DNA of 64,000 nt from Desulforhabdus amnigena (GTDB taxonomy: Bacteria; Desulfobacterota; Syntrophobacteria; Syntrophobacterales; Syntrophobacteraceae). How positions within the stretch are numbered: the first letter of the stretch is position 1; every line of letters starts with the position of its first letter. Shown here in pieces: positions 19,606-47,679 of this stretch. The notes below the pieces were generated by a model that worked only from the letters and a program-made list of their open reading frames with translations, had not been told where the DNA came from and made no database searches. Where the stretch lies: the NCBI RefSeq assembly GCF_027925305.1, contig NZ_BSDR01000001.1, positions 461,001-525,000 on the forward strand, read 5' to 3'. A program made the translations under genes and the position numbers.

Positions 19606-19706
19606 ATCAACGGCGGAAGATAGGAGTCAGAGGACAGAATCACAGCACTGCTCCTCTTCAGAATTTTGACTCCTGAATGCTGTCTGCTTCAAAGGAGGCG
19701 GGAATT

Positions 19707-20687
19707 ATGCCTGAACTCACGAAAGATCAGAAACTGGCGCTATACCGGGGGCTCGTTCGTGCTCGAAAATATGATGAGCTCAATGTCCGCATGGCTTCGG
19801 AAGGAAAGCTCCTCACTTTCTATCACAGCGCACAGGGCCATGAAGCCATCGGTGTCGGCGCCTGCTCGGTTCTGAGAAAAGACGACTACGTGTACATGCA
19901 CATCCGCGGTCATGGCGTGCCTTACGCCATCGGCAAAGGGATCGATCCCAAGAACTGCGTCGCCGAGCACCTCGGCAAGGCTACCGGCTGGGGGGGCGGA
20001 ATCACGGGCGTCCACATGGTGGACAAGGAAAATGGTGTCCTCGGCGTGGGCGGAACCATCGGCTCGTGCTTTGTCTTATCGGCGGGATATGCCCTGGCGG
20101 CCAAAAAACGAGGAAAAGGACAGGTTTGTGTCTGCTTTACCGGTGACGGCGGAATGCAGAGGGGCCAGGCTCACGAAGCCATGAACATGGCGGCCAGCTG
20201 GAAGCTTCCGGTTGTCTGGGTCGTCGAAAACAACCTCATGGCCTGGTTCACGCCGTTTTGCGATACCAGCGCCGTCAAAGATATCGCCCAGGTGGCCAAA
20301 GCCTACGACATGCCGGGAGTCATCGTAGACGGTATGGATGTCTTTGCGGTGCGTGAAGCCGTTGAGAAAGCCGTCAAGCGAGCTAGAAAAGGAGAGGGCC
20401 CTTCCCTGATTGAATGCAAGACATACCGGTTCAGAAGCCATTCAGAGGGCAGACCGGATGCTTGCCATAACAAGCTGAGGCCCCAAGAAGAGATCGAGAA
20501 GTGGAAGGAGAGGGATCCTGTCAAATTGTGTAGGGAAAGACTGCTGGAAGAAGGAGTTCTGACGGTTGAGCTCATGGACGGGATTGAGCGGGAATATGCG
20601 GTGGAAATGGAAGAGGCGGAGAAATTCGCCCTGGAGAGCCCCTATCCCGATCCTTCCAGACTGCCTGAAATCGTCTATGCACCTTAA
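19707..20687 (+). CDS. thiamine-dependent dehydrogenase E1 alpha subunit (acetoin/pyruvate type)
   Basis: A 326-residue E1-alpha. The ThDP motif is GDGGMQRGQAHEAMN ... ENN, with the preceding TGWGGG and the phosphorylation-loop-like FRSHSEG. It decarboxylates a 2-oxoacid or cleaves acetoin, passing the acyl group to lipoyl-E2. Its length and separate beta subunit fit the AcoAB/PdhAB type rather than the long AceE. The start at 19707 has AAAGGAGG 7 bases upstream. The spacer before it holds a GGAGTCA/TGACTCC inverted repeat. E1-beta follows after 17 bases. Acetoin and branched-chain 2-oxoacids are both possible substrates. Confidence 0.9.
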   Translation: MPELTKDQKLALYRGLVRARKYDELNVRMASEGKLLTFYHSAQGHEAIGVGACSVLRKDDYVYMHIRGHGVPYAIGKGIDPKNCVAEHLGKATGWGGGITGVHMVDKENGVLGVGGTIGSCFVLSAGYALAAKKRGKGQVCVCFTGDGGMQRGQAHEAMNMAASWKLPVVWVVENNLMAWFTPFCDTSAVKDIAQVAKAYDMPGVIVDGMDVFAVREAVEKAVKRARKGEGPSLIECKTYRFRSHSEGRPDACHNKLRPQEEIEKWKERDPVKLCRERLLEEGVLTVELMDGIEREYAVEMEEAEKFALESPYPDPSRLPEIVYAP

Positions 20688-20704: not shown

Positions 20705-21667
20705 ATGAAAACACTGAACTATTGGCAGGCGATCTCTGAGGCTTTTGCCGAGGAAATGGAAAGGGATGAGACCGTTTTCATCATCGGCGAAAACGTTCAA
20801 GAAAGCCCTTTCATGATCACCAAGGGCCTTGTGGAGCGGTTCGGACCGGAGCGCGTCATGGACGCACCGCTCAGCGAACTGGCCAACGCCGGTGCAACGG
20901 TCGGGGCCGCCTGTGCGGGGTATCGTCCCATATGTGACCTGACCTTTGCCGATTTCATATATTGCGCGGCCGATGAAGTATTGCTGAAGGCCGCTCAGCA
21001 GTACTTCGCCCACAACGGCCAGGTCAATGCCCCCTGTGTCTTCGTTGGCGTCGCCGGGGGCGGGTTCGGTACGGGCCCCGAGCACTCCCACGTTCCTTCC
21101 GCCATGATCCTGAATAATCCGGGCCTCAAGCTTGTTCTGCCCAGCACGCCCTATGACGCCAAGGGGCTGATGAAGGCGGCCATACGCGACAACAATCCGG
21201 TATGCTATTTCTTCCACAAGAAGTTAATGGGCCTGACCGGGGAAATTCCCGAAGAAGAGTACGTCATTCCCCTGGGGCAGGCCGACATCAAGCGCAAGGG
21301 CTCCGATGTCACCGTCGTTGCCACCTTGTACATGGTCCATCATGCCCTCACCGCCGCGGAGAAACTGAAAGACGAAATCAGCGTTGAAGTCATCGACCCG
21401 CGGTCTTTGGAGCCCCTCGACATGGATACGATCCTCGAGTCGGTGAAGAAGACGAACCGCGTCGTCATCGTGGATGAAGACACGGAACGATGCGGGGTGG
21501 CCGCGGAGTTGGGCCAGCAGATCATGGAGCAGGCCTTCGACTATCTCGATGCTCCCGTACGGCGGGTGTGCTCCAGGAATATGCCGGTTGCCGGAGCGGC
21601 CATGGAAAAATACACCATTCCCAACGCCGACCAGGTCATTTCCGCCATCCGGTCAATGGTCGAGTAA
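20705..21667 (+). CDS. thiamine-dependent dehydrogenase E1 beta subunit
   Basis: A 320-residue E1-beta (transketolase pyrimidine-binding plus C-terminal domain). It opens with LNYWQAISEAFAEEMERDET, has the IGENV and DAPLSELANAGATVGAA segments typical of the subunit, and the conserved VIDPRSLEPLD. Paired with the alpha subunit it forms the alpha2beta2 decarboxylase. GGAGGG precedes the ATG. It is followed after 38 bases by the E2 gene, completing the E1-E1-E2 order known from aco and pdh operons. Confidence 0.93.
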   Translation: MKTLNYWQAISEAFAEEMERDETVFIIGENVQESPFMITKGLVERFGPERVMDAPLSELANAGATVGAACAGYRPICDLTFADFIYCAADEVLLKAAQQYFAHNGQVNAPCVFVGVAGGGFGTGPEHSHVPSAMILNNPGLKLVLPSTPYDAKGLMKAAIRDNNPVCYFFHKKLMGLTGEIPEEEYVIPLGQADIKRKGSDVTVVATLYMVHHALTAAEKLKDEISVEVIDPRSLEPLDMDTILESVKKTNRVVIVDEDTERCGVAAELGQQIMEQAFDYLDAPVRRVCSRNMPVAGAAMEKYTIPNADQVISAIRSMVE

Positions 21668-21705
21668 AATCCATATATTTTAATTATATCAGTAAGGAGG
21701 GAGCC

Positions 21706-23010
21706 TTGATCAAAAATTTATTCATACCGAAGCTGGGTATGACTATGGAGAAAGGAAGAATCGCCCAGTGGACGGCCAACGATGGTGATCAGGTGCAGGC
21801 GGAGCAGGTTGTCCTGATCCTTGAAACGGAGAAGGTCGCCCATGAAATCGCGGCTCCCATTTCCGGAATCCTGGCCATTCTGGGGAAGGCCGGTGATGAG
21901 TATCCCTGTGGGACGGTTGTCGGTGTGGTCGCTGAAACCGCACAAGAATATGAAGCCGTGAAGAAGAACCCAGCCGCGTATGCTGCTTCAACCGAAGCCG
22001 GTGCGTCATCCGATGAAGCAGAGGCTCTGGAGCACAGAGATCTTCCTGTCGAGATCCCGATCCAGGTAGAGATCGGCGCACGGGAAAGGATCCGAATCTC
22101 TCCTCTGGCCAGAAAGCTTGCCCAGATGCAAGAGCTCGACATTTCCGTTCTGACCGGCTCAGGGCCCGAAGGCAGGATTGTCAAGCGGGATATCGAGCAG
22201 GCCGTGGAAGCTCGAGAACAGAAAAAGGCGACCAGTGAGCCTGCTCCCGTTTCCAGAGCGGTCTCCGCGCCCGTATCGGCGGAGGTTTGCGCCGGCAAGC
22301 GGGTCAGGGCCGTTATTCCGCTCACCGGCATGCGAAAGAGGATCGCGGATAACCTCCATAAAAGCACCTCGACGACCTCTCGCGTTTCGGCAATGGTGGA
22401 ATTCGACATGACGGAGCTTGTGAATCTCCGGAGCCATTATGTCAGCAAAGCCCCGATCCTGGGCTTCAAGATTACCTACACGGATTTGTTCATCTATATG
22501 GCTGCAAAGGCACTCAAAGCTGTTCCGATCATCAACTCGAGCCTCGTCGGTGATGAGATCAAATTGTGGGAAGACATCAATATCGGCTTTGCCGTATCGG
22601 TGATGAAGGGTGCAGATGAAAGCGGCCTTCTGGTACCGGTCATCCGCAATGCCGATCGGATGACTCTCGGGCAGATCAGCAGGGCCAGAAAGGACCTGAT
22701 GGACAAAGCCAGGGCAGGAACGATATCCCTGGACGAATTGACGGGAGGCACGTTTACGATCACCAATACTGGCACGTTCACTTCTCTCTGGCACATTCAG
22801 ACTCCCATCATCAATCTACCGGAAGCTGCAATCCTCGGTACGTCCTCCATTGTCGAACGGCCCGTCGTCATAAACGGTGAGATCGCCATCAGGCCGATTA
22901 TGCCCATGTCCTTTGCCTTTGACCATCGCGTCATGGATGGCGCGCCCCCCGCTCAGTTCATGGGACTGTTGCAGCAAATGATCGAGGATCCATGGATGAT
23001 CCTGATGTAG
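21706..23010 (+). CDS. dihydrolipoamide acyltransferase E2 component
   Basis: A 434-residue E2 from a TTG start preceded by AAGGAGGGAG. The N-terminal lipoyl domain carries the lipoylated Lys in ETEKVAHEI near residue 43. A linker leads to the peripheral-subunit-binding domain (RISPLARKLAQMQELD ... GPEGRIVKRDI), then the catalytic core with FDHRVMDGAP (HxxxDG) near the C terminus. There is a single lipoyl domain. It transfers the acyl group to CoA and would be lipoylated by the LipB-LipA fusion encoded at the end of the operon. The frame is open upstream through the end of E1-beta, which is not a real start. Confidence 0.92.
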   Translation: MIKNLFIPKLGMTMEKGRIAQWTANDGDQVQAEQVVLILETEKVAHEIAAPISGILAILGKAGDEYPCGTVVGVVAETAQEYEAVKKNPAAYAASTEAGASSDEAEALEHRDLPVEIPIQVEIGARERIRISPLARKLAQMQELDISVLTGSGPEGRIVKRDIEQAVEAREQKKATSEPAPVSRAVSAPVSAEVCAGKRVRAVIPLTGMRKRIADNLHKSTSTTSRVSAMVEFDMTELVNLRSHYVSKAPILGFKITYTDLFIYMAAKALKAVPIINSSLVGDEIKLWEDINIGFAVSVMKGADESGLLVPVIRNADRMTLGQISRARKDLMDKARAGTISLDELTGGTFTITNTGTFTSLWHIQTPIINLPEAAILGTSSIVERPVVINGEIAIRPIMPMSFAFDHRVMDGAPPAQFMGLLQQMIEDPWMILM

Positions 23011-23067: not shown

Positions 23068-25680
23068 ATGTCAGATGATTTGACGATAGAGGGCTACGTG
23101 GATGAGGACGGTATAAAATGGATGAAATCGCGGTGCTTCTTTTGCCACGTGCACTGCGGCATGCTGGTTGGAACCAAAGATGGCAAGATCGTCAGAATGA
23201 AGCCCGATGAATTGGATCCGTTGACGGGAATGTGCGAGCGGATCGGGCCAAATGGTGAGCGAGCCATTAAGAACCACTACCATCCCAAGCGCATCAATCA
23301 TGCTCTCAAGCGTGTGGGCGAGCGCGGTGAGAACAAGTGGGAGAAGATCCCCTACGAGCAGGCGCTGGATGAAATTGCGGCCAAGCTCAACGAATTGAAA
23401 GAGAAATACGGTCCCGAGACGCTCGCCGTCACCGAGGGGACCTACCGTTCCGACCATCTCTGGGCCCGCAGCCGCTTCACCAATCTCTGGGGCAATCCCG
23501 GCAACCTGGCCGATCCGGGCAGCATTTGCTGGTGCTGGCTGTATACCATCAACCTGGCGATGGTCGGGTTCCTCTCGGAAACTGCCCTCAACGCCACCAT
23601 CGGCCTGTCCAAGACCATTGTCATCTGGGGCGCCCGCATCAATGAGCGCCACAGTCCCCAGGCCTGGACCGTGAAGCAGCTCAGGGCCGCCTGCTCAAAC
23701 GAAGACCAGAAGCCAAACGTCATCGTCATCGATCCCTACATGATCGATGCGGTTCGGGATGCCGAGACCTACCTGCCCATTCGCCCCGGCACCGATACGG
23801 CGATGATGCTGGCCTGGCTGAACGTCATCTTCAACGAGAAGCTCTATGACGTGGATTTCGTGAAGAACTGGTCCAACGGCCCCTTTCTCGTGCGCCAGGA
23901 TACCAAGAAATTGCTGCGGGAAAGCGATCTGCGCAAAGGCGGCAAAAGGGAAAATTTTGTGGCCTGGAACACCGAGACGGAGAAGCCGGCCGTGTGGGTG
24001 TCCAGCCAGAACCGCTACGAGGAAGAGGGCGTGGAAAATGCGATCGAGGGAGAATTCGGAGTAACCCTCGAGGATGGCAAAAAAGTCGCCTGCCGGACGG
24101 CCTTTTCCCTGCTCAAGGAGCGCTGCGACGAATACCCGCCGGAGAAAGTCGCCCAGATCACCGGGGTGCCGGCCCATAAGATTGAGCATGCTGCGAGAAC
24201 CTACGCCACGGAGAAGCCGAGCTGCATGGGCTGGGGGGTCGGCTGCATCGACCAGGCCGGATGGAACGCGACCAGCGGGGCGGTCTGCAAAGTCATTCTG
24301 CGCTCGATCACCGGCAACCTGGACGTTCCCGGCGGTGATTACCTCCCCGAGCCCGGCCCGGTCATCAACGGGCAGTTCCCGGTCCGCGACGGCGAACTGG
24401 AGCTGTCGGAAATGGTGTCGCCGGAGGCGCGCGCCAAACTGCTCGGCAACGACCGGTTCCGCATGATGGGCTGGAAAGGTTTCGAACTCTCCGATGGACC
24501 CTTCCGGGAGATGTGGGGAGTCGCACGCCCGCAGCTCCATCAGATGCTGAGCGCCACACCGCTGTTGTGGCGGGCCATCCTGAACGACGATCCCTATCCG
24601 GTTCGTGCCGTCATCTCCTGGTCGTCCAATCCCATGGTTTGGGCGCCGAATACCAAGATGGTTTACAAGGCTTTGAAATCGCTGGATCTGTTTGTTTCTC
24701 TCGAGTACTGGATGACCCCAACCGCTGCGCTGGCCGACTACGTCCTTCCCGCTGCTGACTGGATGGAGCGCCCCATGTTCACCAATATCGAGGATTCCCT
24801 CGATATGTTCCTGGGCGGGCCCCGTGCTTCCGAGCCAGTCGCGGATCGACGCATGGACTACGACTTCTTCCGGGGCCTTGGACTGAGAATGGGGCAGAAA
24901 GAGCACTGGCCGTGGGAAACCTATGAGGAAGTAATCGCCCACCGGCTCGAGCGGATCGGCGTAACCTACAAGGAATTCTGTGAAACCGGCATGCTCTTCC
25001 CCGATATGTCCTCCGCGGACCAGTTCGAGAAGCACAAGTCTATCCGCCAGGACGGCCAGGTTCGCGGCTTTGCGACACCTTCCCGGCGCTGTGAGATTTA
25101 TTCGAGCATCATCGAGGACTTGGATTACGATCCCCTGCCGCTCTTCCGGGAACCTGCCGAATCTCCCATCAGCACCCCCGAGGTGGCCAAGGAGTATCCC
25201 ATCATCCTCACCACGGGCGGTAGATTCGTGCCGATGTTCCACTCGGAGCACAGGGTACCGGGGACCGGCACACGGGAGATGCATCCCTGGCCCATTTTCG
25301 AGATCCACATGGAAACCGCAAGAGAGCTGGGAATCCGCGATGGCGACTGGTGTTGGATAGAGACGCCGCGAGGACGTATTCGCCAGGTTGCGCGACTCGG
25401 GTTCGCCCTCAAGGCCGGAGTCATCATTGCCCAGCCGAGCTGGTGGTATCCGGAGCTTCCCGCGGAGGAGCCATGGCTGTGCGGGGCGTTCATTTCCAAC
25501 GCCAACGTGCTCACGGATGACAACCCCGACATTCTCGATCCCATCTGTGGCAACTGGTCCAATCGCGGGCTGCTGTGCAAGGTTTACCGCTGCGAAGAGC
25601 CTGAGTGGTTGTCAGACCGGGTACCCCATGAATTGTTCCTGGAAGAAAAATCCGGATATCCCAAGGCCTTCAAGGCATAG
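23068..25680 (+). CDS. bis-MGD Mo/W oxidoreductase or hydratase, enzyme 2
   Basis: An 870-residue paralogue of enzyme 1. The cluster motif is CFFCHVHC near 24-31 with a fourth Cys in GMCERIG. RVGERGENKWEKIPYEQALDE follows, and the putative metal-ligand Cys is in GSICWCWLY. It shares the insertion around WNTETEKPAVW and the C-terminal pterin-binding domain (GFATPSRRCEIY, IAQPSWWYPELPAEEPW). No Tat signal. Position 4 of the cluster motif is followed by His, not the Asp of acetylene hydratase. A ferredoxin gene starts 13 bases downstream, so it may be an electron-transferring partner. Confidence 0.86.
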   Translation: MSDDLTIEGYVDEDGIKWMKSRCFFCHVHCGMLVGTKDGKIVRMKPDELDPLTGMCERIGPNGERAIKNHYHPKRINHALKRVGERGENKWEKIPYEQALDEIAAKLNELKEKYGPETLAVTEGTYRSDHLWARSRFTNLWGNPGNLADPGSICWCWLYTINLAMVGFLSETALNATIGLSKTIVIWGARINERHSPQAWTVKQLRAACSNEDQKPNVIVIDPYMIDAVRDAETYLPIRPGTDTAMMLAWLNVIFNEKLYDVDFVKNWSNGPFLVRQDTKKLLRESDLRKGGKRENFVAWNTETEKPAVWVSSQNRYEEEGVENAIEGEFGVTLEDGKKVACRTAFSLLKERCDEYPPEKVAQITGVPAHKIEHAARTYATEKPSCMGWGVGCIDQAGWNATSGAVCKVILRSITGNLDVPGGDYLPEPGPVINGQFPVRDGELELSEMVSPEARAKLLGNDRFRMMGWKGFELSDGPFREMWGVARPQLHQMLSATPLLWRAILNDDPYPVRAVISWSSNPMVWAPNTKMVYKALKSLDLFVSLEYWMTPTAALADYVLPAADWMERPMFTNIEDSLDMFLGGPRASEPVADRRMDYDFFRGLGLRMGQKEHWPWETYEEVIAHRLERIGVTYKEFCETGMLFPDMSSADQFEKHKSIRQDGQVRGFATPSRRCEIYSSIIEDLDYDPLPLFREPAESPISTPEVAKEYPIILTTGGRFVPMFHSEHRVPGTGTREMHPWPIFEIHMETARELGIRDGDWCWIETPRGRIRQVARLGFALKAGVIIAQPSWWYPELPAEEPWLCGAFISNANVLTDDNPDILDPICGNWSNRGLLCKVYRCEEPEWLSDRVPHELFLEEKSGYPKAFKA

Positions 25681-25693
25681 ATGCGAGGGGCAA

Positions 25694-25975
25694 ATGCCGG
25701 ACCAAACCGGAGATGACGCCAACGGGAGGAGCATCCATAACCTGCAGCGAGCAGGAGTAGGTCGTTTATTCACTGCTCGCGTGAAGTCCCTGCTTTGCGT
25801 GGGATGCGATGAGTGTCTGGCCGTGTGCAAGTACGGAGTCCTTAGGCGAACAGCGGATGGAAAAGTGGAAGCCAAGAGCGGGCAGCATTGTGCGGGCTGT
25901 CTCAAGTGCGTCGGGGTTTGCCGCACGAAAGCCATTCACATTCTGCCCGGGAACTGCTTCGCCCGACCGCGGTAA
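25694..25975 (+). CDS. small 2x[4Fe-4S] ferredoxin-like protein
   Basis: A 93-residue protein with two clusters: CVGCDECLAVCKYG near 38-51 and CAGCLKCVGVCRTKAI near 69-84. The N-terminal 35 residues are unmatched. The start at 25694 is set by GAGGGG just upstream. The frame before it belongs to the previous gene's out-of-frame reading. It is probably the electron carrier for Mo/W enzyme 2. Confidence 0.8.
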   Translation: MPDQTGDDANGRSIHNLQRAGVGRLFTARVKSLLCVGCDECLAVCKYGVLRRTADGKVEAKSGQHCAGCLKCVGVCRTKAIHILPGNCFARPR

Positions 25976-26026
25976 CCTGGTTGTGGAATCAGAACTCGAT
26001 CCGCAACGACTCGTTGGAGAAATGGG

Positions 26027-26301
26027 ATGTCAAAAGACGCGGATCGCCTGTTCCAGCTCCAAGAAAAAGGCCTTTGCTGCAGCCAGATGCTTCTTCTGAT
26101 GGGGTTGGCGAATTAGTCGAATGGTTTTCACGGGAATACGGCCAGTTCTTCGGGGGCATCCGTTGTGACGATATCCTCGGGGACGATCCGAACGCGTGCA
26201 CCAGTTGCGGCTCCATTGTGCTTGGTACGTACGGAAGGGTGAGAGCATTACTCACGGAAAACGGTTTCGATCTCAAATGCAGCGGATCTAGAAAGGAATT
26301 T
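26027..26301 (+). pseudogene. C_GCAxxG_C_C family protein (DVU_1555-like), internal deletion and frameshift
   Basis: The first piece starts at ATG 26027 (GGAGA upstream) and reads to RLFQLQEKGLCCSQMLLLMG, the characteristic start of this redox-protein family, ending at TAG 26114-26116. The second piece, one frame over from about 26098, reads ELVEWFSREYGQFFGGIRCD and then CTSCGSIVLGTYGRVR, the characteristic C-terminal part. The central half with the GCAxxG motif is missing, so about 50-60 residues were deleted and the frame changed. The second piece has no stop before the next gene and is in frame with it. The intact family is found near Mo-hydroxylase maturation genes (recalled, not verified). 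Confidence 0.7.
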
Positions 26302-26640
26302 ATGTCTATGGAGTCCTATTACGATCCTGGCGACCTGGCGAGGTTTCCGGAAATCGGAGAAGACGCATCCGAGTTGTCAGGCAAGTTCTTCGAATATTAT
26401 GCAGCAGTGTTTGCTGAAGGGCTGCTCAGTGAGAGGGAAAAGGCCCTCATCGCCCTGGCAGTAGCTCACACTGTCCAATGTCCCTACTGCATCGACGCGT
26501 ATACGCAAGGCTGTCTGGAGAAAGGATCCAACCTTGGAGAAATGACCGAAGCCATCCATGTAGCAACCGCAATACGCGGCGGTGCTTCGCTGGTACATGG
26601 TATCCAGATGCGGAGGATCGCAAAGAAGATATCCATGTGA
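26302..26640 (+). CDS. AhpD-like/carboxymuconolactone decarboxylase-fold protein
   Basis: A 112-residue protein starting MSMESYYDPGDLARF, with the AhpD-type CxxC in VQCPYCIDAY near 61-64 and GGASLVHGIQMRRI at the end. It closely resembles the peroxidase-like protein encoded next to arsenosugar-synthesis radical SAM genes (recalled from memory), but no such partner is nearby. The start is chosen for AGAAAGGA just upstream and for the family's usual N terminus. The frame continues open upstream into the C_GCAxxG_C_C remnant, so a fused product is possible. A CxxC redox or peroxidase role is likely. Confidence 0.8.
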   Translation: MSMESYYDPGDLARFPEIGEDASELSGKFFEYYAAVFAEGLLSEREKALIALAVAHTVQCPYCIDAYTQGCLEKGSNLGEMTEAIHVATAIRGGASLVHGIQMRRIAKKISM

Positions 26641-26925: not shown

Positions 26926-27025
26926 CTGAGGTGAACGGCATTTTGCATTGGGGCGCCTCCTTCGGGGGGTGCCCTTCACATTTGTGATCATGGCAATGGG
27001 GAGCAAGAAACAAGGGGGGAGAGGG

Positions 27026-28423
27026 GTGTCAGATTTCAGTTCGTATGATGTCATCATCATTGGTGCCGGGCCCGGGGGCTACGTGGCGGGCATAAGAGCC
27101 GCTCAACTGGGCCTCAAGGTCTGTATCATCGAAAAGGATAAACCCGGGGGGATTTGCCTGAATTGGGGATGCATCCCATCGAAGAGCTTGATCCACCAGG
27201 CGCGCCTGTATAATGACAGGCATGAACTGGAGCGGATGGGGCTCGCCATCGATACTCGGAGCTTCGACTATGGCCGGGTGCAAAAGAAATCCCGCGAGGC
27301 AACCCAACACTTGAATGCGGGGGTCGAGTATCTGCTCAAAAAGAATAAAGTGGATTTGATTCAAGGAACAGCCAGAATTGCGAGCCGCAACAAAGTTGTG
27401 ATCCAGGGCAGCGACAGGACGATAGAAGGCCGCAACATCATCATTGCCACCGGATCGCGTCCGGCCGAGATCCCCGGTTTTGAGTTCGATGAAAAACAGG
27501 TGTTGTCATCCACCGGCATCCTTTCTATGATGAAGCTTCCTCAGAGCCTGATTATCCTCGGAGCCGGGGCCATCGGCTGCGAGTTCGCCTATGTCATGAG
27601 CTCGTTCGGCGTGAAAGTGACGCTCGTGGAGATGGCGCCTCATGTACTCCCCTTCGAAGACGCCGAAGTGGCTGGAGCTCTCGAGAATTCTTTCAAACAA
27701 TCCGGAATCCGGGTGTTGACCGCCACGCATGCCGTTTCGCTGGAAAAAACGGATACAAAGGTCGTGGTCAGCCTGGTGGGTGATGATGGAAAGCAACAGA
27801 AAGCAGAAGCTGAAAAAGCTTTGTGTGTTTTCGGCAGGAAGCCGAATACAGACGATATCGGCCTGGAGAGCATCGGATTGAAAACCGAGAAAGGCTACAT
27901 CCCGGTCGGGGATTATTATGAGACATCCGTTAAAGGCGTTTTTGCCATTGGCGATGTGGTGGCTACGCCGCTGCTCGCCCATGTGGCATCCAAAGAAGGG
28001 GAGATCGCCGTTGAGCACATTGCCGGACGAAAGCCAAGACCGCGAGTTGACGTCAATGCGATCCCCTCTGCGATCTACTGCGCCCCCCAGGTAGCAAGTT
28101 TCGGCCTTCGGGAATCGCAGCTCCAGGAGAAAGGGGTAGCTTACAAGAAGGCTCTCTTCCCCTACAGAGCTGTGGGAAAAGCCGTTGCCATCGACCATGC
28201 AGAAGGAATGGCCAAGCTGCTCTATGATCCGGAGACTCAAGAGATATTGGGCTGCCACATCATCGGTCATGATGCCACTGAATTGATACATGAGGTTCTG
28301 CTGGCAAAATCATCCGAGCTGCTGCCTGAAGATGTCGCCGGCATGGTCCATGCCCATCCAACTATATCCGAAGTTGTGATGGAAATGGCGAAGGCTGTGA
28401 ATGGAGAGGCAATTCACTTATAG
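27026..28423 (+). CDS. lpdA: dihydrolipoamide dehydrogenase (E3)
   Basis: A 465-residue flavoprotein that reoxidises dihydrolipoyl-E2 with NAD+. It has the FAD GxGxxG (IIGAGPGGYVAG), the redox disulfide GGICLNWGCIPSK, the NAD-binding GAGAIGCEFA, the second FAD motif GVFAIGD, and the interface HAHPTISE His-Glu pair. The GTG start has an AGGGGGGAGAG-type ribosome-binding site; ATG starts 36 bases or more upstream are possible. It completes the E1-E2-E3 complex, separated from E2 by Mo enzyme 2 and the small redox genes. Confidence 0.93.
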   Translation: MSDFSSYDVIIIGAGPGGYVAGIRAAQLGLKVCIIEKDKPGGICLNWGCIPSKSLIHQARLYNDRHELERMGLAIDTRSFDYGRVQKKSREATQHLNAGVEYLLKKNKVDLIQGTARIASRNKVVIQGSDRTIEGRNIIIATGSRPAEIPGFEFDEKQVLSSTGILSMMKLPQSLIILGAGAIGCEFAYVMSSFGVKVTLVEMAPHVLPFEDAEVAGALENSFKQSGIRVLTATHAVSLEKTDTKVVVSLVGDDGKQQKAEAEKALCVFGRKPNTDDIGLESIGLKTEKGYIPVGDYYETSVKGVFAIGDVVATPLLAHVASKEGEIAVEHIAGRKPRPRVDVNAIPSAIYCAPQVASFGLRESQLQEKGVAYKKALFPYRAVGKAVAIDHAEGMAKLLYDPETQEILGCHIIGHDATELIHEVLLAKSSELLPEDVAGMVHAHPTISEVVMEMAKAVNGEAIHL

Positions 28424-28457
28424 GACAGTGACAAGTGACGAGTGACAAGTCCCCATT
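28424..28457 (+). repeat. short GTGAC-A/G-AGT tandem spacer repeat
   Basis: GTGACAAGT, GTGACGAGT and GTGACAAGT follow each other directly at 28429-28450. This is degenerate 9-base spacer DNA, probably not functional. Confidence 0.5.
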
Positions 28458-28560
28458 GTGGCAGGGTCTCCCGACCCTGTCACCGGATCGACCGCAGGTC
28501 TCAAATGCCAGAGGAGACCTTCGGTCGGACCAATGGCGCGGTCGGGAGACCGCGTCATAA
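28458..28560. repeat. imperfect ~44-bp inverted repeat (dispersed intergenic repeat)
   Basis: The left arm contains GGGTCTCCCGACCC and CGACCGCAGGTCTC. The right arm contains GAGACCTTCGGTCG and GCGGTCGGGAGACCGC. Read against each other they match over most of 44 bases around a 10-15-base centre. Each arm also has its own 5-6-bp hairpin (GGGTC-TCCC-GACCC and GCGGTC-GGGA-GACCGC) with complementary loops. It lies in the leader of the lipBA gene. Confidence 0.65.
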
Positions 28561-28639
28561 CCATTGTTGGAGACCACACCTTATCCGTGGTGTTCTCTGT
28601 TCACTCTTCCGGCTGTTCACTTTTCACTGGAGTAGGGAT

Positions 28640-30160
28640 TTGACAGAGCTCGATATCATAGATTTAGGGCTGATAGAGTACTCGGAAGCTCTTTCACTTC
28701 AGAAGGACCTGGTCAGGGAACGTATGAATGGCGGCCCAAGGGACCGCCTGTTGCTGTTGGAACATCCTCCGGTGATCACCATAGGCCGAAGCGGCAACGA
28801 GCATGATCTGAAATTACAGGAAGAAATGCTCGTGAAGAGGGGGGTTGCGGTCCATGCAAGTGACAGGGGAGGCAAGGCAACGTTCCATGGTCCCGGCCAG
28901 CTGGTAGCCTATCCTATCATGAAGTTGGAGAACAAGGACGCTCATTGGTATGTTGAGAAGCTCCTGGAAGTTGTTGCGAGCCTTCTTAAGGAGTATGGCT
29001 TACAGCCCGGGTTGAAGGATGGGGCTCCGGGCATATGGATCCAAGATAGAAAGATTGCCAGCATAGGAGTTTCCATCAAGAAATGGGTAACGTCACACGG
29101 CATTGCCCTGAACGTCAATACGCAGCTGAACGGCTTCGAATTCATTGTTCCCTGCGGAATGCCCGGACAAGAGATCACTTCAATGGAAAAGGAGCTGGGG
29201 GCTCCGCAGGATTTCATTAGGGTCAAGGATCGATTTATCCAGCATTTCAAAAGAGTCTTTGGTTATGAGGAGTTTCAGGCCCGCACCCGTCCGAAATGGC
29301 TGACAATGCTGCCGCCGAAGCAGGAGCACATGGAGAAGATGCAAGCCTTTATTCAAAAGATGCATCTGGGCACGGTTTGCCAAAGCGCCCATTGCCCCAA
29401 TATGGGAGAATGTTTCAGCAAAGGCACGGCTACTTTTATGATTTTGGGCAGGTATTGCACCCGCAAGTGTCGGTTTTGCGCAGTGGAGAAGGGCACCCCT
29501 CTTCCTTCGGACCCACAGGAGCCCGGGCGCGTGGCCAAAGCGGTGCAAGAGCTCGGCCTGCACTATGCCGTGATTACATCCGTCACCCGAGATGATCTGC
29601 AAGACGGCGGTGCGGATCAATTCGTTCAAACGATCAGGGAAATTAGGTCATTGTCTTCGGATACGAGGATCGAAATCCTGGTGCCGGATTTTCAGGGCAG
29701 GCCGGAAGCCATCGAAAGAGTGTGCTCCGCCGGGCCGGACATGTTCAACCACAATTTGGAAACCATAGCTCGCCTCTATCCACTTGTACGGCCACAAGCG
29801 AGGTACAACCGATCCCTCGATGTTCTGTCATATGCCGCAAGGTATGGCCTGCCGGTAAAGTCCGGACTGATGCTCGGCCTCGGTGAGTCCAACGATGAAG
29901 TGATGAGAACTCTCGATGATCTCCGCGAGGCTGGCTGTGAGTACCTGACCCTGGGGCAGTATCTCGCTCCTTCCAGAACCCATGTCCCCATCTCGAGGTA
30001 CGTATCCCCGGAGGAATTCGAAGAATGGAGCAGTACAGCCAGGACAATGGGGTTCAAAGGAGTGGCTTCCGGACCGTTGGTCAGAAGCTCTTATAGGGCA
30101 GAACATTTCTTTTTATTCGCAGAGCTGGAAAAGGATCGAGTTCAAACCGCTGTGATCTAA
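28640..30160 (+). CDS. fused octanoyltransferase-lipoyl synthase (LipB-LipA)
   Basis: About 506 residues from a TTG start with GGAG upstream. The N-terminal 215 residues are LipB: RGGKATFHGPGQLVAYP, the lysine region KIASIGVSIKKWVTSHGIALN and the acyl-accepting Cys in IVPCGMPG. The rest is LipA: the auxiliary cluster CQSAHCPNMGEC, radical SAM CTRKCRFC, and RSSYRAEHF near the end (the RSSY cluster ligand). The two steps of lipoate assembly would be on one chain. The TTG has upstream in-frame sequence through a repeat, which I exclude. As the last gene of the operon it can lipoylate the E2. An acoS gene for a LipA homologue in the Pelobacter carbinolicus aco operon is a known parallel (from memory). 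Confidence 0.9.
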   Translation: MTELDIIDLGLIEYSEALSLQKDLVRERMNGGPRDRLLLLEHPPVITIGRSGNEHDLKLQEEMLVKRGVAVHASDRGGKATFHGPGQLVAYPIMKLENKDAHWYVEKLLEVVASLLKEYGLQPGLKDGAPGIWIQDRKIASIGVSIKKWVTSHGIALNVNTQLNGFEFIVPCGMPGQEITSMEKELGAPQDFIRVKDRFIQHFKRVFGYEEFQARTRPKWLTMLPPKQEHMEKMQAFIQKMHLGTVCQSAHCPNMGECFSKGTATFMILGRYCTRKCRFCAVEKGTPLPSDPQEPGRVAKAVQELGLHYAVITSVTRDDLQDGGADQFVQTIREIRSLSSDTRIEILVPDFQGRPEAIERVCSAGPDMFNHNLETIARLYPLVRPQARYNRSLDVLSYAARYGLPVKSGLMLGLGESNDEVMRTLDDLREAGCEYLTLGQYLAPSRTHVPISRYVSPEEFEEWSSTARTMGFKGVASGPLVRSSYRAEHFFLFAELEKDRVQTAVI

Positions 30161-30179: not shown

Positions 30180-30839
30180 TTAACATGCGGAACATTCATC
30201 TCTTGCCGGCTTGATCCGCCTCGGGTCTACGACGATCACCTTCCCGGCTCTTTTCAATGCTCTTTCGATCATGCCGCCGCACATGCCGTCCGCCGATCCG
30301 GAATGGGTGATGTTGCAGCCCCAGACCACCATGCACTCCGGGTCCTTTCCACCAAATCCGTAAACTTCGGTGACCGGCAGCTGCCCCATGGTGATTTTGC
30401 TCGCCGCCACCCTGGGCAGATAACATACATGGCCGACAGACACGAAGTTGGGGGTCCCAAAGGCGTTGGCGAACCGAACGGTGAACTCGATCAACGGCCT
30501 GCCCGTCCCTTGCCCGATGGCCACGTATTCCGATCCGCTTTCAGCCTTTATTGCGGCGAAACGGTGGGCGATTTCATCAAGAGCTTCCTCCCACGCGATA
30601 CGCTTCCATTTGTTTTCTCCCCGCTTTCCCGCGCGCCGGAGGGGATGGATCAATCGATCCGGATGGTATAGGAGCTCCGGAGAGGCGGTCCCTTTCGGAC
30701 ATAAGTAACCTCTGCTCACCGGGCTTTCAGGGTCTCCCGTAATCTTTACGACACGTTCCCCTTGCATGTGGACCATCACCTGGCACACGCCATGACACAT
30801 GCGGCATGCGGAACGTATGATTCGGTTGTCTTTTTCCAT
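30180..30839 (-). pseudogene. truncated bis-MGD oxidoreductase, N-terminal part only
   Basis: The frame starts MEKDNRIIRSACRMCHGVC with a standard cluster motif (CRMCHGVC ... YLCPKG), goes through RAGKRGENKWKRIAWEEALDEI, a putative ligand Cys in GHVCYLPR, and VVDPRRIKPARDE, then ends after four foreign residues at TAA 30180-30182. The family runs to 700 or more residues, so the pterin-binding half and C-terminal domain are gone. The cut lies 20 bases from the end of the convergent lipBA gene, suggesting a deletion that joined the two regions. GGAG is 8 bases before the ATG, so the stub may still be translated. Confidence 0.8.
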
Positions 30840-30938
30840 ACCAAGCACTCCGATTATATCTTTCTATCCACGGGGATTTTGCGAGCTTCCTCCTGTTTTG
30901 TTAACGGTGATCGAGAGAATACGCACGCCTTCCCCTTT

Positions 30939-45538: not shown

Positions 45539-46759
45539 TCAGATCGCAGTGGGCAGCATATGGTACTGGCGCAAAGCCGCGATCCATCGAGGAGCATTGC
45601 GCTGAACCATCAGCTCTTTGTAATCCACCTGTGAATCTCGATAAGGTACCCTGCGACTGAGCAGAATGAAAACGATTTTCAGAATCTTATGAGCCAAAGC
45701 AATAATGGCGCGCTTGTGTCCCCGGCGTATGACAAGCCCCGAATACTTGCTTTGGAACATGCTTTTGGTACGACGTGCGGCATTGGCCATTTCGCACAAC
45801 AGTCGTCGTACATATGGGTTGCCCTTGCGAATGCGACCGCTTTTTCGCTTTCCGGCGGATTCGTTATTGCCAGGGCAGACCCCGGCCCACGAGGCCAGAC
45901 GCTGTGGGGAGCCGAAGGCCTCCATGTCCAGTCCGATCTCGACGATCAACATAGCCGCACCCACGGCATCGATTCCAGGTATGGTCTGGAGAAGGTCCAG
46001 AGCCCAGCGGTGAGACTCCAGTTCAGCCAGCAATTGGGTGTCGAATCGAGCGATACGGGCCTCGAGCTCACGGATGTGCTGGAGGATTTCGCGCAGGACG
46101 AATCGATGGGCGGGAGTCAAATCGCCATCGAGTGCGTCGAGCAACTCCTCGGGAGTGGCTTTGAGCCTGGAGTTGGCAAACTCCAGCGCCTGCAGGGGTG
46201 TTCCGCCCTCGATCAAACATTCGATCATATGCCGGGCGGCTTGACCGTGAATATCACTGACCACCACGGAAAGACGTATTCCGCCATCCGTGAGGACTTT
46301 ATGAAGCCTGTTCTTTTCACTGGCAAGCATCCCAACCAGCTTCTGTCTCTCACGGGAAATCAGACGGAGGTTTCCCAGTTCTTCTGGAGGAATGAAGCTC
46401 CCGCGAAGCAGGCCGCAACGGGCCAGCATGGCCAGCCAGCGACTGTCGGCCACATCCGTTTTGCGACCGGGAACCTGCTTGACGTGTCGGGCATTGACAA
46501 CGGCGGCAACGATTCCCTCGCGTTCCAAGGCCGAGTAGATGCTCTTCCAGTAGATGCCCGTGCTCTCCATGACCACAATTTCGGGGTTGGCGTCTCTGGC
46601 CCACCTGGCCAAAGCTCGCCGATCCCGCTTAAACGTACCGAAAGTCAGTGTTTCCGTGTGGATCGATCCGTCTTCCTGTTCCGCAATCAGACAGGCCGTC
46701 ACATGCTTTTGATGAACATCAAGGCCTATAGCGCTCTTGTGGATCGGTTCCAGTTCCAT
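45539..46759 (-). CDS. IS110-family transposase (DEDD recombinase)
   Basis: A 406-residue transposase. The N-terminal DEDD_Tnp_IS110 domain begins AIGLDVHQKHVTAC, with VVMESTGIYWK carrying the second acid and RKTDVADSRWLA the last Asp pair. The C-terminal Transposase_20 domain has TIPGIDAVGAAMLIVEIG and FGSPQRLASWAGVCPGNNES, including the serine used in strand cleavage in the family. Length is typical. It seems intact and possibly active. Ribosome-binding site AGGAGGAG precedes the ATG but lies in a hairpin loop. Confidence 0.95.
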   Translation of the reverse strand: MELEPIHKSAIGLDVHQKHVTACLIAEQEDGSIHTETLTFGTFKRDRRALARWARDANPEIVVMESTGIYWKSIYSALEREGIVAAVVNARHVKQVPGRKTDVADSRWLAMLARCGLLRGSFIPPEELGNLRLISRERQKLVGMLASEKNRLHKVLTDGGIRLSVVVSDIHGQAARHMIECLIEGGTPLQALEFANSRLKATPEELLDALDGDLTPAHRFVLREILQHIRELEARIARFDTQLLAELESHRWALDLLQTIPGIDAVGAAMLIVEIGLDMEAFGSPQRLASWAGVCPGNNESAGKRKSGRIRKGNPYVRRLLCEMANAARRTKSMFQSKYSGLVIRRGHKRAIIALAHKILKIVFILLSRRVPYRDSQVDYKELMVQRNAPRWIAALRQYHMLPTAI

Positions 46760-46806
46760 GTCCTCGACTCCTCCTGTAAAATGTATGTTGAGATGGCGAG
46801 GACATG
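46757..46806 (-). promoter_or_regulatory. hairpin enclosing the transposase ribosome-binding site and start codon
   Basis: A perfect 10-base inverted repeat, CATGTCCTCG at 46757-46766 and CGAGGACATG at 46797-46806, flanks a 30-base loop. In mRNA the arm nearer the gene contains the ATG start, and the loop contains AGGAGGAG. Folding would hide the start codon, limiting transposase translation. Confidence 0.55.
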
Positions 46807-46963
46807 TTTCGAATCAACCTGCGGGTGCCCGGCACCCGTGGCCCTATTACCGTGCGCTCTCTATAGAAGCAATCCGGGGTGCGATGCGAAACAATGGGTC
46901 TCGTTAGCTGACTGGGTCCAAGCCACGTATTCACTTGCGCGACCTCGCCCTCGCCAGCTCCCT

Positions 46964-47063
46964 TTATACCACCTTTCATCATCAGGGGTGCCGCGAACAT
47001 CTCGGCATGAACGTTATACCACCTTTCATCATCAGGGGTGCCGCGAACATCTCGGCATGAACG
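46964..47063. repeat. 50-bp perfect tandem duplication
   Basis: The unit TTATACC...CATGAACG at 46964-47013 is repeated exactly at 47014-47063, and the following bases TTAGC start as if a third copy began. It abuts the presumed IS110 end and duplicates host coding sequence for AEMFAAPLMMKGGI. Confidence 0.85.
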
Positions 47064-47149
47064 TTAGCTACGATGTTCCTGTAGACACCGACCAGAAAGA
47101 AGGCCATCGACACCAGGACCAGCACCCATATGAAAGTGTATTTGAGCAT
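47014..47149 (-). pseudogene. 5' fragment of the interrupted NarI/DsrM-like membrane gene
   Basis: From ATG 47149, 2 bases after the ferredoxin stop, the frame reads MLKYTFIWVLVLVSMAFFLV, then GVYRNIVANVHAEM and onward: a first transmembrane helix and the start of a cytoplasmic loop. It then enters the 50-base duplication and becomes out of frame in the second copy, where it soon meets a stop. The rest of the protein resumes at 45428 beyond the IS110 element. The usual operon order (Mo subunit, Fe-S subunit, membrane subunit) agrees. Confidence 0.65.
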
Positions 47150-47151
47150 GG

Positions 47152-47679
47152 TTACGCCCCTTCATGGCCCAGAAGGACCCCACCTGCCTCTTCATAAAAA
47201 AGGCGGTCTGCCGTGTTCTTCTTGGAGAATTTGGCGAGCTCATCGATGAGTCCTGAGACAATAGCCTGCGTCGGGCAGATTTCTTCACAGGCCCGCTTCA
47301 TTCCCCTGGGACGTTCCTGGCAGAAGTTGCATTTCTCCATTCGGCCTTTCACGCTCATCTTGGGTGCACCGAAGGGGCAGGCCCACAGGCAGAGCATGCA
47401 CCCCACGCACTTTGACTGGTCAACGGTCACGGCACCGGTTTCTTCGCTCTTGCTGATGGCCTGCCGGGGACATGCTTTTTTGCACGGCGCATCTGCGCAA
47501 TGCATACAGGCCAGGGAAACGTTCACACCGGTGATTTCGGGAAACTGCCCTCTCGTCAGGCACGTGACATTTCTCCATTTCACCGTCTGGTTCGAGCCGT
47601 TCCACACCTGGCAGGCAACCTCACAGGCGCGGCAGCCGACACATTTTTCTTTATCGAAGTAAAATCCGTACTGGCTCAT
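47152..47679 (-). CDS. four-cluster ferredoxin subunit, DmsB/PhsB/HybA-like
   Basis: A 175-residue iron-sulfur electron-transfer subunit with four 4Fe-4S groupings: CVGCRACEVAC near 13-23, CMHCADAPCKKACP near 58-71, CVGCMLCLWACPFG near 91-104, and CNFCQ ... CEEICP near 117-136. This is the standard subunit between a Mo catalytic subunit and a membrane anchor. It lies 7 bases after Mo enzyme 4 and 2 bases before the interrupted membrane gene. The subunits lack a Tat signal, so the complex would face the cytoplasm. Confidence 0.93.
   Translation of the reverse strand: MSQYGFYFDKEKCVGCRACEVACQVWNGSNQTVKWRNVTCLTRGQFPEITGVNVSLACMHCADAPCKKACPRQAISKSEETGAVTVDQSKCVGCMLCLWACPFGAPKMSVKGRMEKCNFCQERPRGMKRACEEICPTQAIVSGLIDELAKFSKKNTADRLFYEEAGGVLLGHEGA

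Follow-up and report, generated by a model that had tools for sequence, protein, structure and literature searches.

Lipoylation de novo takes two steps: LipB carries octanoyl from octanoyl-ACP to a lipoyl-domain lysine by way of a cysteine thioester, and LipA inserts two sulfurs into the octanoylated domain. The locus studied here, in a window of 64,000 nucleotides from Desulforhabdus amnigena, raises the question of whether both steps reside in one protein and, if so, which lipoyl domains such a protein would load. It would be a natural single-chain form of the two-step pathway, and would let one ask directly whether the hand-over of the octanoylated domain benefits from LipB and LipA being joined, as well as whether separate complexes have separate lipoylation lines in cells.

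The first-pass annotation had read the locus as LipB and LipA in one chain, and this is borne out. We found a single frame (28442-30160, plus strand, 572 codons) that stays open from a GTG at 28442, its first, to a stop codon at 30158-30160, in which profile searches place a complete LipB (residues 67-276 of this frame) followed by a complete LipA (residues 278-558); the motifs quoted in that annotation (IVPCGMPG, CQSAHCPNMGEC and CTRKCRFC) are all present in the translation. The start is most likely TTG 28640, judging from the letters upstream, which gives a gene of 506 codons (28640-30160, plus strand) for a predicted chain of about 56 kDa. We prefer it, and rejected the first GTG, because the 66 codons ahead of the TTG lie outside every family match and overlie an inverted repeat, and because a Shine-Dalgarno-like GGAG is present (Table 1). 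The repeat, which stands between lpd and the fusion, matches nothing in Rfam at E 0.1 and occurs only once in the genome, the sole other match being its own reverse arm.

Table 1. Features of the fusion gene and its operon; scores are given against curated cut-offs, and residues are counted from TTG 28640.
Feature	Position	Strand	Remarks
E1 alpha	19677-20687	+	TIGR03182, 280 bits vs 394
E1 beta	20705-21667	+	NF006667, 318 bits vs 321
E2 acyltransferase ORF	21490-23010	+	PF00198, PF02817, PF00364; true start probably near 21706; one lipoyl domain, 21724-21921
Molybdopterin oxidoreductase	23068-25680	+	matches under curated cut-offs
Ferredoxin-like stretch	25646-25975	+	start not settled; matches under curated cut-offs
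Frame with C-GCAxxG-like and arsenosugar-associated AhpD-like segments	25888-26640	+	TIGR04169, 181 bits vs 120
Dihydrolipoyl dehydrogenase (E3, lpd)	26948-28423	+	TIGR01350, 544 bits vs 409
Inverted repeat, imperfect	28456-28502 / 28514-28560		47 nt, 74% complementary
Shine-Dalgarno-like GGAG	28629-28632	+	sequence; seven bases before TTG 28640
LipB half	28640-29263	+	residues 1-208; K138 at 29051-29053, C172 at 29153-29155
Linker, short	29264-29290	+	residues 209-217; length varies among the 12 fusions
LipA half	29291-30157	+	C247/C252/C258 (29378, 29393, 29411), C273/C277/C280 (29456, 29468, 29477)
RSSY of LipA half	30086-30091 (serines)	+

Both halves pass curated cut-offs of their families. 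The LipB half scores 146.5 bits with TIGR00214 (cut-off 83.55) and 170.3 with NF010925 (cut-off 155), and falls below the cut-off of three other LipB models (NF010921, NF010922 and NF010923); the LipA half reaches 363.3 bits with TIGR00510 (cut-off 310.25), and the two halves also match PF21948 and PF04055, respectively. K138 and C172 are the catalytic lysine and cysteine of LipB; the LipA half carries the CX4CX5C and CX3CX2C motifs, which hold the cluster cysteines, and RSSY. Compared with LipB (TIGR00214; PDB 2qhs and 1w66), the window protein shares the entire domain, both catalytic residues (Lys and Cys) and the fold, but continues into LipA; compared with LipA (TIGR00510; PDB 5exi, 4u0o and human LIAS 8tsk), it shares the cluster motifs, RSSY and the fold, but its LipA has no free N-terminus and begins right after LipB. 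An attaching enzyme is likewise fused ahead of LipA in NF053790 (bifunctional lipoate-protein ligase/lipoyl synthase). However, the partner there is a ligase, and membership was rejected on a score of 396.8 bits against a cut-off of 800, the match covering only the LipA part of the profile (positions 324-605). No model in the NCBIfam library searched is named for a LipB-LipA fusion.

An AlphaFold2 model of the fusion, built from a 61-row alignment, has a mean pLDDT of 92.9 and a pTM of 0.70, with low confidence at residues 212-214 and 500-506, and its halves superpose on solved structures of LipA (5exk, rmsd 1.0) and LipB (2qhs, rmsd 1.5). Since the relative placing of the halves is uncertain (pTM 0.70, residues 212-214), the model bears nothing on channelling.

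A search of relatives, as the annotation had proposed, recovered at least 11 orthologous joined open frames in other genomes. Three of the 26 genomes of the window's family (G000, the window's own, G014 and G023) carry a full-length fusion, and a search of 395 genomes of the phylum with the LipB half showed the close, fused form in at least ten (G000 and nine others), among matches listed to about E 1e-37, such that fusions with a weaker LipB may exist. Twelve distinct fusions, the window's included, are open through the join when read from the DNA; that of G014 runs to the end of its contig, and that of G214 has one ambiguous residue in LipB. Identity to the window protein is 53-59% among the other 11. 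K138 and C172 of LipB, C247/C252/C258 and C273/C277/C280 of LipA, and RSSY are invariant in all 12, and 18-24 residues lie between two fixed points flanking the join. Three close pairs, the only ones used, gave dN/dS values of 0.11-0.17 for either half and of 0.23-0.31 over 30 codons spanning the linker, and the fusion is thus under purifying selection in these pairs.

Several other long frames are not fusions. In G144, G328, G268 and G325, as in G398 and for the second LipB of G329 and G429, LipB is preceded by an in-frame stretch; in G329 a small Biotin_lipoyl match (C2:137289-137504, a 107-aa frame) lies directly ahead of the second LipB (L177). The 590-aa frame of G011 holds LipB and LipA in one frame divided by a single TGA (L046, 3738-3740, minus strand), downstream of E1, E2 and lpd.

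In the window operon the order is E1 alpha, E1 beta and E2, then the molybdopterin oxidoreductase, the ferredoxin-like stretch and the AhpD-like frame, and finally lpd and the fusion. The first-pass annotation had placed an E2 in the fusion's own operon, rightly: E2 and E3 are encoded together with it. By its gene content the operon is of acetoin/2-oxoacid-dehydrogenase type, with all four components (E1 alpha, E1 beta, E2, E3) encoded in it and the E1 models below their cut-offs (E1 alpha below that of each family matched). This linkage is general among the relatives, E2, E1 alpha and E1 beta being found near 11 of the 12 fusions and Lpd near nine. An acoX-like gene is near eight of the 12, on contigs some of which are short, and no acoX match was found in the 64-kb window or in L044, L060 or L061.

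Lipoylation genes have been placed in such clusters before. In the portions of the Pelobacter carbinolicus report available to us, lipB (Pcar_0350) and acoS (Pcar_0346, lipoyl synthase) are ancillary genes of the acetoin dehydrogenase cluster and are treated as the only lipoate source of the organism (PMC3543383); these are the same two enzymes with an acetoin cluster, but in two separate genes. The same portions give acoX as typical of acetoin dehydrogenase clusters, that of Pelobacter holding one, and put LarG near an Act complex (PMC3543383). The available part of a report on Acinetobacter describes a putative lipoyl synthase gene in an acetoin cluster, with acoABC-type genes as here, and mentions no fusion (PMC6595428). 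Dedicated lipoylation enzymes are also attributed, in the extracts at hand, to the sHdr/LbpA sulfur-oxidation system (PMC6067878, PMC10332631), where they are likewise encoded beside one client, but are an LplA-like ligase and LipS1/S2, and the client is another. We found no report of a LipB-LipA fusion of this kind in the openly licensed literature by title or abstract start, nor is one described in the available portions of PMC10332631, PMC4398509, PMC3917532, PMC3904984 and PMC6067878. Separate lipoylation genes of acetoin operons are already known (PMC3543383).

Taken together, we consider it likely that the product is truly bifunctional and provides lipoylation for an operon of the acetoin/2-oxoacid-dehydrogenase type, most probably loading the adjacent E2. 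The LipB half would take octanoyl from octanoyl-ACP as a thioester on Cys172 and pass it to the lysine of a lipoyl domain, and the LipA half would then insert two sulfurs into the same octanoylated domain. We count in favour of this reading the cut-offs passed, the invariant motifs, the confidently modelled halves, the low dN/dS, the linkage to E1 and E2 and the Pelobacter precedent; against it we count an unfused LipB within the LipB group of the fusions and their weak grouping in the LipA tree (see below), and the window's want of acoX. We infer both activities, expression as one chain and the operon E2 as the main client. The annotation had gone further, suggesting that fusion channels octanoyl groups to the E2 of the same operon; given the linkage this is plausible, and a hand-over between the LipB and LipA sites is a guess.

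A substantial possibility, somewhat short of an even chance, is that the operon simply collapsed neutrally: both halves would work as an ordinary general LipB and LipA, and joining would affect neither rate nor client choice. Repeated fusion is what one would expect if a lipB-lipA pair occasionally loses its stop, and at least seven further joined frames were found outside the clade among the best 80 of 588 relatives, a set that may leave out near kin of the window. They come from MAGs named Pelosinus fermentans, Anaerolineae, Desulfocapsa, Brevinema, Gammaproteobacteria, Nitrosomonadales and Acidimicrobium, and E2 is near three of the seven (L094, L095 and L105). Quick trees without bootstraps were drawn after removal of rows with stops, short cover or duplicates, which took LipB from 114 to 85 rows and LipA from 165 to 133 (the latter after the stop and cover filters). 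In the LipB tree the 12 fusions fall in a group of 13 with an SH-aLRT of 96, one unfused LipB (G227) lying inside, and a constraint holding the 12 together was not rejected (p 0.577). In the LipA tree they are again joined by a single unfused sequence, a planctomycete LipA, to make a group of 13 (support 81), while as a split against all others the 12 are held weakly (support 28). A single clade of all 19 fusions was rejected with both LipB (p 1.3e-30) and LipA (p 0.0014); the fusion groups for these AU tests were defined from gene structure at a point when the trees already existed but the tests had still to be run.

Rejection of a single clade for the 19 is most simply explained by repeated fusion, and LipB has probably been joined to LipA on several occasions; an ancient fusion that later split many times stays a formal alternative. 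The statement of the annotation that the two enzymes are normally separate fits most of the pairs seen, but for these probable repeated fusions. For the clade of 12 a single origin is most likely, through the collapse of lipB and lipA genes that closed an E1/E2-type operon. The G011 arrangement, with its lone TGA, is one step short of fusion and suits a neutral collapse, as does the fusion of G214, which seems to serve all lipoyl proteins; against neutrality, 12 genomes spread over several families of the phylum have retained the joined form, at 53-59% identity.

Service to particular clients would be stricter if cells kept two insulated de novo lines, a reading that we regard as unlikely. The fused enzyme would recognize the lipoyl domains encoded alongside (in the E2 of the operon and, in relatives, a LarG-like H-protein) and pass the octanoylated domain from LipB to LipA unreleased, while a separate LipB and LipA would serve the other complex. 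The window genome has a second operon with E1 alpha, E1 beta, E2 (its lipoyl domain at 3421524-3421742 of the genome) and lpd followed by separate lipB and lipA genes. A second LipB was found, among the matches listed, in 11 of the 12 fusion genomes (all but G214), and a second LipA in ten (all but G069 and G214). Three second LipA copies were flagged with an internal stop (G411, G128 and G238): that of G411 is at residue 274 of 276 matched, and the other two have none in the aligned part. In G214 we found no LipB besides the fusion (E<=1e-25, among the matches listed) and no other LipA (E<=1e-30), so that this organism seems, in a search covering LipB and LipA rather than LipS1/S2 or LipM, to depend on the fused enzyme as its sole route of de novo lipoylation. 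As G214 also has three H-protein matches, this argues that the fusion works and is not strictly E2-specific, and hence against its serving the operon E2 exclusively; an LplA-like gene is present there as well.

We think it still less likely that the principal client of the fusion is an H-protein-like (LarG-like) carrier within an electron-transfer module, linkage to E2 being secondary. Downstream of the fusion, H-protein-like and LplA-like genes occur in eight of the 12 loci (L056-L063, in G069, G411, G238, G376, G055, G129, G128 and G214), and the fusion's client need thus not be E2. Seven of these eight also have a multihaem cytochrome/NarI-like membrane protein and a CCG iron-sulfur protein, and six a GGR-like flavoprotein, a gene content suggestive of a module for lipoyl-linked electron transfer. 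The 27.9-kb contig of G055 has the fusion together with an H-protein-like gene and yielded no match to E1, E2 or lpd along its whole length, which again speaks against exclusive service to E2. However, the window genome itself has no GCV_H match at E 0.001, E1 and E2 accompany the fusion at all loci but that one, and the LplA-like gene of the same modules could serve the H-protein.

Returning to the bifunctional enzyme loading the operon E2, it would fail if one half were dead or repurposed and a separate lipB/lipA pair did the work. The second copies in most genomes would allow this, but we judge it very unlikely: the motifs are invariant and dN/dS is low in both halves, and the fused LipA should function in G069 and G214 because no other LipA was found there. 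An assembly or sequencing error joining two genes has a negligible chance, and with 11 orthologous joined open frames elsewhere and a window genome in one contig (4,536,740 bases), such error and chance can in practice be excluded as the source of the join.

Two other frames of the window deserve mention. On the minus strand at 30180-30848, a 222-aa molybdopterin-oxidoreductase frame matches only the start of its family and is possibly a truncated gene, and a 502-aa frame at 45689-47197 (plus strand), with no Pfam match at E 1e-6, may be the non-coding strand.
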